Shown here one piece after another: positions 15,505 to 20,916 of a stretch of 23,934 nucleotides of DNA. The stretch's first letter is position 1; each line of letters starts with the position of its first letter. The stretch comes from a virus, in IMG/VR virus record IMGVR_UViG_3300030012_000407, positions 1 through 23,934 of that record; one strand, 5' to 3'. The notes beneath the pieces were generated by a model. It saw only the letters and a program-made list of their open reading frames with translations. It was not told the origin of the DNA and did not search any database. The translations under genes and the position numbers were made by a program.

Positions 15505-15629
15505 TAAAAGAAGATATAGAAAAACTGAAAATTGATATTGAGGATGCTATGCTCTCAGGAGACTATGAAAGTATTGTTGTAATATTAAAATTAATTATAG
15601 ATAAAATAGAAGAACTAGAGAAAAAATGA
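15501..15629 (+). CDS. Small acidic helical protein, 42 residues
   Basis: MIKEDIEKLKIDIEDAMLSG, followed by a heptad-like helix ending in KIIEELEKK-type charged residues. It overlaps the upstream stop by four bases (ATGA) and the next ATG by four bases, so the frame is embedded in a translationally coupled chain. It is predicted all-alpha and may dimerise. I do not recognise a family. Confidence 0.6.
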   Translation: MIKEDIEKLKIDIEDAMLSGDYESIVVILKLIIDKIEELEKK

Positions 15630-18777: not shown

Positions 18778-19024
18778 TAAACAATCTCGTGACGAAGTAT
18801 ATGACTACGACACCAGCTACTGTTTTAAACTAAGACGTGGTAAAGGTTGGATTCACCTAAACAAGAAAGCAACAGAGCTAATAGAACACGATGACCACTT
18901 TGAGATAAGACTAGCAGATTGGTATATAAATGTTGGAGATAAATATATCTCTGAAACAATAATAAGACAAGAGCAATGTCAAGAGCTTCAAGAATGGTAT
19001 TTAAAAACTAAGACAAATGGATAA
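18755..19024 (+). CDS. Unknown protein, 89 residues
   Basis: Start MAQTYLFSKQSRDEVYDYDT. The sequence is beta-rich in its first two thirds ('CFKLRRGKGWIHLNKKAT', 'HFEIRLADWYINVGDKYISE') and ends with a helix. It overlaps the SSB-like gene by 23 bases and the DnaA-like gene by 8. Only one ATG fits. It belongs by position to the replication block; no family is recognised. Confidence 0.65.
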   Translation: MAQTYLFSKQSRDEVYDYDTSYCFKLRRGKGWIHLNKKATELIEHDDHFEIRLADWYINVGDKYISETIIRQEQCQELQEWYLKTKTNG

Positions 19025-19445
19025 AATAGATAGAGTAAAAAAAGTTGTGTGTTATGTTACTAAGATGACGGAAAAAGAACTTTTATCTAAAAGTAGAAAA
19101 AGACACATAGTTGATAATAGACGGATGGCTTTTGTAATTTGCAGAGATATATTAGAACTCAATTGGACTAAGATAGCCAAAGAGTTTAATTTAAACCACG
19201 CTAGTATCATACATCATTACAAAAAGCATAAAGACTTAATGGCTTACGATGATTATTATAATAGTAAATATAACGATATTTTAGATGTCTTTAAATTACA
19301 GATTGACTATGTTGAGCCTAAAGAACTCATCAGAGAAATAGTAAATATTAAAAAGCAAAGATATAATGATTATTTAAAACAAAAACTAAGAGAGAATGAA
19401 GGTAAAGGACAAAGTGAAACAACTTTTATTGGACCATCCATCTAA
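19017..19445 (+). CDS. Free-standing DnaA domain IV-like DNA-binding protein
   Basis: 142 residues. Residues about 8-75 follow the domain IV pattern of DnaA: 'VVCYVTKMTEKELLSKSRKRHIVDNRRMAFVICRDIL', then 'WTKIAKEFNLNHASIIHHYKKHKDLM'. LLSKSRKRHIVDNRRMA aligns with the LLSKRRTRxIVxARQxAM region, and NHASI (60-64) replaces the DHTTV signature that reads the DnaA box. The ATPase domain III and the N-terminal helicase-loading domain are missing. The rest (about 76-142) is charged and unrecognised. It may bind DnaA boxes to mark an origin, compete with host DnaA, or act as a repressor. The downstream gene overlaps it by 50 bases. Confidence 0.85.
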   Translation: MDKIDRVKKVVCYVTKMTEKELLSKSRKRHIVDNRRMAFVICRDILELNWTKIAKEFNLNHASIIHHYKKHKDLMAYDDYYNSKYNDILDVFKLQIDYVEPKELIREIVNIKKQRYNDYLKQKLRENEGKGQSETTFIGPSI

Positions 19446-19704
19446 TAGAGATTCAGATAGTAAACTTATAGCAAACTATTGGTATTATGAATTAAATAAA
19501 AAAGGTGTAGATTTACATCAGCTAAGTGCTTTTGATTTACTTCAATACTATGCTGATAGTAAGTTAACAAATGCTGAGTCAATAAGAAGAATGAGAGCAA
19601 AGTTGCAAGAGCAACACATTGAATTGAGAGGTAAGAAATACAATCTTAGAAAAACAACAATTCAAAATAAAGTTAGAAAGGAACTAGGATATGAAGCGAA
19701 TTAG
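19396..19704 (+). CDS. Conserved phage protein of unknown function, 102 residues
   Basis: Start MKVKDKVKQLLLDHPSNRDS. The blocks 'LLLDHPSNRDSDSKLIANYWYYEL' and 'KLTNAESIRRMRAKLQEQHIELRGKKYNLR' are ones I have seen in hypothetical phage proteins next to replication genes. All-helical and basic near the end, which suggests nucleic acid or protein binding. Long overlap (50 bases) with the DnaA-like gene and 14 bases with the initiator gene. No function is assigned. Confidence 0.7.
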   Translation: MKVKDKVKQLLLDHPSNRDSDSKLIANYWYYELNKKGVDLHQLSAFDLLQYYADSKLTNAESIRRMRAKLQEQHIELRGKKYNLRKTTIQNKVRKELGYEAN

Positions 19705-20365
19705 AGTTGAGAAATCTAAGAACTTCACTACAATAAATAATGAGTTTATTTTTAATAAAAACTTATCGTTAAAAGCTAAGGGGTTGCTATGCCATCTCTT
19801 AGCTTTGCCTAACGACTGGAAGCTATATGTTGAGGAGGTTGAGAAATGGAGTACAGATGGCAAGTCTGCTATCTACTCAGCGTTTAAAGAACTAACAACT
19901 AATGGCTATATGAAACGAAAGCAGATTAGAGAAAAAGGTAAGATAGTTAGCTGGGATTATATAGTCTTTGAGAAACCACATACCGATTTTCAAGATATAG
20001 AAAAATTAGATGTAGAAAATCGACCACTACTAAATACTAATATTAAACTAAATACTAATAATACTAAAACAGAAAGGGATTATCCTTTTGAATTGAATTT
20101 AGAGGCTTGGGAATTATGGAAAGAATTTAGAAAGGAACAATTTAGAACTACTTACAAACCATTAGGTGAGGCTGCTGCCATTTCTAAGCTATTAAGAATC
20201 TCCAACAACAACAAAGAACACCAGGCGCAAATTATCCAGCAATCCATTGAAAATGGATGGAAAGGATTGTTTGAGCTTAAAACAGAAAAACAAAACAAAG
20301 TTCAAAAGATATTAAGCAACTATCACAAAGGACTAGAAATGATAAATAAAGAATACAATGACTGA
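19691..20365 (+). CDS. Replication initiator / replisome organiser (winged helix)
   Basis: 224 residues in three parts. Residues about 8-95 form a winged helix-turn-helix of the HTH_36 type ('FTTINNEFIFNKNLSLKAKGLLCHLLALP', 'STDGKSAIYSAFKELTTNGYMKRKQ'). Residues about 110-130 are an Asn/Thr-rich linker encoded by direct repeats. Residues about 133-224 resemble the C-terminal part of phage replisome organisers or DnaT-like loaders ('EAWELWKEFRKEQF', 'IIQQSIENGWKGLFEL'). The layout parallels lambda O: DNA-binding domain, linker containing the origin, partner-binding domain. It is therefore the best candidate for the origin-binding protein. It overlaps genes on both sides. Confidence 0.78.
   Translation: MKRIRVEKSKNFTTINNEFIFNKNLSLKAKGLLCHLLALPNDWKLYVEEVEKWSTDGKSAIYSAFKELTTNGYMKRKQIREKGKIVSWDYIVFEKPHTDFQDIEKLDVENRPLLNTNIKLNTNNTKTERDYPFELNLEAWELWKEFRKEQFRTTYKPLGEAAAISKLLRISNNNKEHQAQIIQQSIENGWKGLFELKTEKQNKVQKILSNYHKGLEMINKEYND
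20029..20069. repeat. Iteron-like direct repeats inside the initiator gene (origin candidate)
   Basis: ACTAAATACTAATA occurs at 20029-20042 and exactly again at 20047-20060 (period 18). The core AATACTAA occurs three times, at 20033, 20051 and 20060, with spacings of 18 and 9. The stretch is extremely AT-rich and encodes the Asn/Thr-rich linker between the two domains of the initiator, the position of the lambda O-gene iterons. No further copies outside this stretch were found by eye. Confidence 0.5.
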
Positions 20366-20525
20366 TTACTTAGATATAAAAGAACGCAAAGACGTTACTG
20401 TCAAAAATATGTTTGAAATTTACAAGACTGACAATAAATACAGAAACAGAATAACTTGGGATGCACATTATTTAGTAACTGGTTGGAAACACATACAAAA
20501 CACTAAAAATGACAAACAAAAGTAA
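20358..20525 (+). CDS. Small unknown protein, 55 residues
   Basis: MTDYLDIKERKDVTVKNMFE is followed by aromatic-rich 'WDAHYLVTGWKHIQ'. The ATG overlaps the end of the initiator gene by 8 bases and the stop overlaps the next gene by 17, so it fills a gap that would otherwise be empty. No family is recognised. Confidence 0.58.
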   Translation: MTDYLDIKERKDVTVKNMFEIYKTDNKYRNRITWDAHYLVTGWKHIQNTKNDKQK

Positions 20526-20916
20526 ACAAGTTTGGTATTTATATGCCAATGACATTAAAGAACTTAAAAGACAATGTTATGACGTTATATCAACGCTATA
20601 TGTTCAGCTTGGACAAGCTCCAGAAGCTGAGATAATAGTACAGATGACTAATTTATTCTGTAACGATTTAGCAACTAACTATGGCTCTATGGAATTAGAG
20701 GAGGTTAGATTCGCTTTAAATCAACACATAAGAGAGAATGACGGACCACACTTTGTTAATGTACCAACGTGGAACGAGGCTCTCAGAAGCTATAAGATGT
20801 CAAAAGCATTAAAGAGGCAAACTAATCAAATAGACCAATACGAACTATACAAAAAGCGTGTAGAGTCTTTTACTAAGGCAATAGATAAAAGAGAGATAAA
20901 AAAGATAGGTAAATGA
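20509..20916 (+). CDS. Unknown helical protein in the replication block
   Basis: 135 residues, start MTNKSKQVWYLYANDIKELK. The body is helical ('APEAEIIVQMTNLFCNDLATNYGSMELEEVRFALNQHIRENDGPHFVN') followed by 'VPTWNEALRSYK' and a basic end. Pattern and position just behind the initiator suggest an accessory replication role, for example a helicase-loader equivalent, but I see no ATP-binding motif and no firm family. It overlaps the methyltransferase start by four bases. Confidence 0.66.
   Translation: MTNKSKQVWYLYANDIKELKRQCYDVISTLYVQLGQAPEAEIIVQMTNLFCNDLATNYGSMELEEVRFALNQHIRENDGPHFVNVPTWNEALRSYKMSKALKRQTNQIDQYELYKKRVESFTKAIDKREIKKIGK

Follow-up and report, generated by a model that had tools for sequence, protein, structure and literature searches.

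The window, the whole 23,934-nt stretch of viral DNA analyzed here (IMG/VR record IMGVR_UViG_3300030012_000407), harbors on its plus strand, at 19691-20365, an initiator (replisome-organizer) gene encoding a 224-residue protein composed of a winged helix, a linker, and a helical C-terminal domain, an assignment that draws on HTH_36 and PHROG profile matches, an AlphaFold model, and Foldseek. A domain profile search places the HTH_36 winged helix at residues 23-74 (E = 3.1e-6), and the PHROG match is to replication initiation proteins (phrog_4707, E = 4.7e-25). The AlphaFold model contains two ordered domains, and the linker, residues 100-128, is its single long low-confidence stretch and is predicted to be disordered. 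The top Foldseek match of this model is the Geobacillus primosome protein DnaB (E = 1.1e-3 over ~100 residues), with domain 1 of RctB found at lower rank, and a sequence search of solved structures returned zero matches. By tblastn, the initiator matches those of TP901-1 (E = 1e-16) and 80alpha (E = 2e-12).

Two neighboring genes are conserved with the initiator. Upstream, at 19017-19445 on the plus strand, is a stand-alone DnaA C-terminal (domain IV) protein that lacks the AAA+ part (PF08299, E = 3.4e-15; TIGR00362, E = 1.5e-13); among the 75 relatives whose upstream DNA is long enough, 68 have this gene before the initiator, a median of ~600 nt away; it probably belongs to the same replication module, and its product could help recruit, or block, host DnaA. 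Just downstream, at 20509-20916, lies a gene for a conserved protein of 135 residues, present in 69 of 75 loci and without a confident family match, which is a candidate for a helicase loader or other partner; none of the window's genes was identified as a helicase loader.

The linker-coding DNA contains two copies of the 14-mer ACTAAATACTAATA (20029-20042 and 20047-20060, period 18) and a third copy of the AATACTAA core (20060-20067), such that cores start at 20033, 20051, and 20060, every one within the open reading frame at 19691-20365. The repeats are in frame (18 nt corresponds to six codons) and encode LLNTNIKLNTNNTK between the HTH_36 winged helix and the helical C-terminal domain. The first-pass annotation had reported this exact repeat and its third core, which are indeed present, and their position between the two domains, which is borne out by the HTH_36 match and the predicted structure. 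The window contains no additional exact copies of CTAAATACTAAT. In window-wide shuffles of synonymous codons that preserve the proteins, the linker acquires a 14-bp repeat in 2.4% of shuffles, compared with 16% for such a repeat anywhere in the window; for an 8-mer triple, the corresponding figures are 5.1% and 91%. Taken alone, the repeats of the window are suggestive; they constitute weak evidence, since 2-5% of synonymous shuffles yield them at the linker, and as chance is not excluded from the window alone, a comparison with relatives is needed.

We carried out this comparison with 80 IMG/VR viral loci that are 56-96% identical, from which a codon alignment of 73 distinct genes was obtained. 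Relatives with the same domain pair and a repeat-less linker were looked for, and AATACT is instead found in two to five copies within a 75-nt module in 72 of the 73 genes, and is missing from the remainder of the gene in 67. We denote this region module B (20027-20068 in the window, CTACTAAATACTAATATTAAACTAAATACTAATAATACTAAA), a candidate AT-rich unwinding element delineated by codon invariance, A/T-ending codons, TA steps, and low stability; it contains the ACTAAATACTAATA/AATACTAA repeats and the AT-rich CTACTAAATACT segment, and its codons are frozen as A/T-ending even in genes of 50-59% GC. The most invariant codons of the whole gene with at least three synonyms are Leu113 (CTA, 73/73), Thr116 (ACT, 71/71), and Thr122 (ACT, 69/69), whereas Thr and Leu codons outside module B vary freely in the same alignment. 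Within module B, Asn is written AAT in 315 of 326 cases (54% elsewhere) and Thr is written ACT in 204 of 220 (39% elsewhere), which counters a reading of the repeats as pure Asn/Thr codon reuse. Copy number and spacing differ among relatives (18, 33, or 16+17 nt), the last of these in genes such as L004 and L005; 17 of the 73 genes hold an extra CTAAATACT out of frame (ACT AAA TAC TTA), and the AATACT repeat is thus not merely a peptide repeat. In the window, module B is the ninth least stable separate 50-bp stretch, within the top 0.4% of positions.

A second element, module A (19991-20015), lies immediately upstream and consists of 15-nt units, each with a 10-bp palindrome of the form XYZ-N4-Z'Y'X' upstream of the Leu-Leu codons, in registers of -21 and -36 nt, and partly -51 nt, relative to those codons. 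The family averages 2.49 symmetric pairs of three at register -21 (1.12±0.08 in synonymous shuffles) and 2.20 at -36 (1.29±0.08 in the shuffles); these two registers are the best among 49 offsets, with a mean symmetry above that of every synonymous shuffle. In the window, unit -36 (19991-20000, CAAGATATAG, followed by AAAAA) and unit -21 (20006-20015, TTAGATGTAG, or CTAGATGTAG in close relatives, followed by AAAAT) were each assigned from register and family symmetry, the latter also because its register is the best one in the 59 distant homologues; they are the two units recognizable in all, and each is imperfect, with two of three half-site pairs symmetric. The half-sites covary by clade (CTA/TAG, CCG/CGG, CGG/CCG, CTG/CAG, GTA/TAC, and CCA/TGG) and are mostly symmetric, and they employ codons that are rare elsewhere in the same genes (CCG, 4%; ACG, 4%; CGG, 1%). 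On a tree that leaves out the linker, the second pair switches at least 17 times and the third pair seven times, with symmetry mostly kept. An exact match to the module A consensus (AAGATATAGAAAAA) also occurs at 15511-15524, distant from the initiator and within a short open frame (MIKEDIEKLK), and is probably due to chance.

The identity of the half-sites tracks the protein that would read them. Wing hairpin codons 85-88 (Ile-Val-Ser-Trp; 19943-19954, plus strand) begin with a residue, Ile or Phe at position 85 (alignment column 86), that is Ile in every one of the 39 sequences with A or T as third half-site base (the pair being symmetric in 38) and Phe in each of the 20 with a G-C third pair, giving concordance in 59 of 59 distinct sequences. 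On a tree from which both wing and linker are left out, the residue and the third pair each change eight times; the supported independent pairs number four to five, all of them concordant and too few for significance in a sign test. Exchange of adjacent DNA as a cassette could contribute in part to this match. Since wing residue 85 and the half-site vary together, module A is a candidate for the site that the winged helix reads, and this covariation points to it as the recognition site.

Both modules extend well beyond the close family. We assembled a distant set of 59 homologues from TP901-1, 80alpha, phages of Lactobacillus, Bacteroides, and Alistipes, plasmids of Firmicutes and Piscirickettsia, and clostridial genomes, the counts from which overstate independence because many are related clostridial elements. 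Palindromes in this set are strongest at -21, -36, and -51, the registers seen in the close family. A/T-ending codons comprise 91% of module B vs 47% expected for the same amino acids and exceed expectation in 58 of the 59 (0.92 vs 0.58 when only the 15 phage and plasmid genes are counted), and in 93% the point of lowest GC in the gene is no more than 11 codons from module B, including genes of 50-59% GC. Of the Asn-Thr pairs, 57 of 79 inside module B are written AATACT, as against six of 55 outside; copies of AAATACT exceed even a null limited to A/T-ending codons, with 26 of the 59 homologues lacking any copy. Module B was not seen in the matches of highest GC (63-72%), which lie outside the 59-gene set and come from actinobacterial Gordonia and Microbacterium and cyanobacterial Microcystis, and the two-module design is therefore not universal in the family. 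The same two-module linker is found in an E. faecium plasmid (L101, in a DUF6017 protein), in L100, and in clostridial loci L133-L212, the origins of which can probably be located from it. A Bacteroidota host, proposed in the first-pass annotation, found no confirmation: scanning genomes with the full initiator protein gave no relative, scanning with the winged-helix profile gave distant homologues only, mostly from Clostridia, and the nearest named phages of the terminase are streptococcal, at 44% identity.

Both modules show constraint at the DNA level, sit in a fixed register, and recur in distant homologues of several phyla. By analogy with published homologues, from which we take the position of an origin within the gene and the binding of the initiator to repeats there, this location is very probably the replication origin of the phage, inside its own initiator gene. 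We consider it likely that the linker DNA at 19991-20068 functions as this origin, with the winged helix binding module A, module B melting, and the C-terminal domain bringing the helicase. In such a model, the winged-helix domain encoded by the gene itself would bind the 15-nt palindromic units of module A, probably as one dimer per site; binding would strain and melt the adjoining AT-rich module B, which starts 11 bp downstream of the last palindrome; and the C-terminal domain, by itself or together with a loader, would deliver the helicase to the opened strand. We infer which of the two modules is bound and which one melts. An origin inside the initiator gene, in the manner of lambda O, had been proposed in the first-pass annotation, and its location stands on the conserved DNA and on the TP901-1 and 80alpha precedents; the designation of the AATACT repeats as the iterons is less likely to hold, as it is module A that covaries with the wing. 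The ACTAAATACTAATA/AATACTAA repeats are probably an unwinding element rather than initiator-binding iterons, and the probable iterons are the 10-bp palindromes of module A, which form their own array a short way upstream (19991-20015).

The strongest competitor to this division of labor is that the AATACT repeats are themselves lambda-like direct-repeat iterons bound by the initiator, with module A secondary. Their repetition in 72 of 73 close relatives, the out-of-frame copies in 17, and the retention of AAATACT in distant homologues above an AT-matched null are all features that a bound repeat would share. We nonetheless regard this as unlikely, as module B is nearly constant between clades, whereas the half-sites of module A shift with the wing, as a recognized site should; moreover, the copy number and spacing of AATACT are variable, and the distant homologues without AAATACT are numerous (26/59).

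Somewhat less likely again is a regulatory role, in which module A is an operator where the initiator controls its own transcription or that of genes downstream, with the true origin located outside the linker. Palindromes bound by a winged helix are typical of operators, the sequence would look alike under both uses, and another origin could sit outside the contig, which may be a fragment. Against this, module A is found mid-gene, far from any start, its AT-rich companion is kept in 59 distant homologues, plasmid genes included, and the homologous TP901-1 and 80alpha have their origins at this place. DnaA boxes give no sign of another origin in the window, with five near-matches vs 7.0 expected and none in the linker, and a DnaA-box origin elsewhere in the window was rejected on the lack of any excess. 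The GC skew is monotonic and uninformative in the window's one-strand gene map.

A constraint on messenger RNA (hairpins or translation) or on the peptide linker, instead of on DNA, is very improbable. The array can be folded as RNA in some relatives (L052, z = -4.25; L036, z = -2.8), but the RNA fold of the window does not improve on its shuffles (z = 0.06), non-pairing combinations such as A/A are common in unit -36 of the family, and Rfam gives no match in 18900-20900; a purely peptide cause is excluded by the synonymous constraint. Chance combined with Asn/Thr codon reuse in an AT-rich genome, which window-only shuffles allow at the linker in 2-5% and often somewhere, can be dismissed with near certainty, as all comparative tests speak against it and A/T-ending codons frozen in GC-rich genes of relatives refute it.

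Among known systems, the chromosomal basal unwinding system (DnaA-trios and the DnaD recognition element) resembles the window in sequence and layout only. In chromosomal oriC, the spacer from the DnaA box is most commonly around 10-13 bp (PMC8287927), and the strand opposite the DnaA-trios of B. subtilis oriC is CTACTATTACTTCTACTA (PMC10201434); the window presents sites, an 11-bp spacer, and then CTACTAAATACTAATATTA, but has no DnaA boxes at the linker and no AAA+ initiator. Steps of TA spaced 3 nt apart are in excess in the close family (5.26 vs 3.93±0.16 in an AT-matched null), whereas the distant set shows no excess (1.42 vs 1.80±0.13); the DnaA-trio reading of module B holds in the close family alone, and the comparison is a lead rather than a finding because this excess is missing in the distant set. 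A far broader proposal is that initiators from phages, plasmids, and integrative elements, together a large family, carry within their coding sequence one origin design across phyla, in which palindromic iterons coevolve with the wing next to a melting element like the DnaA-trios or DnaD recognition element; by imitating the chromosomal unwinding element, with no DnaA boxes present, this design would capture the host machinery for origin opening or helicase loading; we advance this tentatively and think it rather doubtful as a whole. We found no description of the two-module register across phyla or of the match between wing and half-site in the literature searched, which leaves out most subscription papers. 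If the in-gene origin proposed for the window is correct, sequence alone would reveal the origins of uncultured phages, plasmids, and clostridial elements in their hundreds, namely those with this initiator, in which origins are rarely mapped. The 59/59 match between wing residue and half-site base pair makes initiator-iteron specificity testable through natural variants, and the likeness of module B to the chromosomal unwinding strand raises the question of whether the origin-opening step of the host has been borrowed.

RepA_N plasmids such as pSK41 and the hybrid pPR9 share with the window a winged helix, a central linker encoded by ori DNA (a candidate ori in the window), and a C-terminal domain; the ori of pSK41 lies in the center of rep, and the Rep of pPR9 has an HTH of family pfam13730, the same as that of the window protein (PMC5703833). 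The window protein differs in lacking the RepA_N domain PF06970 in a domain profile search, and membership among the RepA_N plasmid initiators was dropped on this basis. In lambda, iterons and an adjoining AT-rich tract inside the O gene form the origin, and two iterons plus the tract are enough for unwinding (PMC7466680). Here too, an origin-like element lies between DNA-binding and C-terminal domains, with candidate inverted-repeat iterons beside an AT-rich tract; lambda has four 19-bp iterons vs two recognizable 10-bp palindromes in 15-nt units in the window, and the profile match of the window protein to O-like proteins is partial (phrog_678, residues 58-205, E = 8.9e-8, a family named "replication initiation O-like"), with several other initiator PHROGs scoring better. 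Lambda also has its partner helicase loader, P, encoded beside O; the conserved gene next to the initiator of the window is the one at 20509-20916. We treat lambda as an analogue.

By sequence, the closest characterized homologues are TP901-1 Rep and 80alpha ORF20. The latter, from a staphylococcal phage and an organizer like G38P of SPP1, has a homologous winged helix and a long run of NTA triplets in its linker. Genetics places the 80alpha origin within the organizer gene, as ORF20 mutants show no complementation in trans and autonomous replication is seen with the ORF20-21 segment (PMC5499656), and the 80alpha record annotates a rep_origin within that gene; the candidate origin of the window is likewise in-gene. 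80alpha differs in the arrangement of its palindromes (ACCGTTAACGGT) and in having a gene for a DnaC-like loader directly downstream, which is not seen in the window. TP901-1 Rep (ORF13) has a homologous winged helix, with 48% identity over the matched part, and its linker harbors the palindrome CCAGATGTGG twice, in registers -36 and -21 as in the window, followed by CTACTAAATACTAAT. It differs in its half-site (CCA/TGG vs CWA/TWG in the clade of the window), its C-terminal domain, and its Lactococcus host. The conserved repeats of both the window and TP901-1 lie within the organizer's own gene, and for TP901-1, as for Tuc2009, the organizer is reported to bind its in-gene repeats, which act as the ori (PMC8965321). 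The best reading of the window is as a further putative in-gene origin of this known TP901-1 and 80alpha organizer kind.
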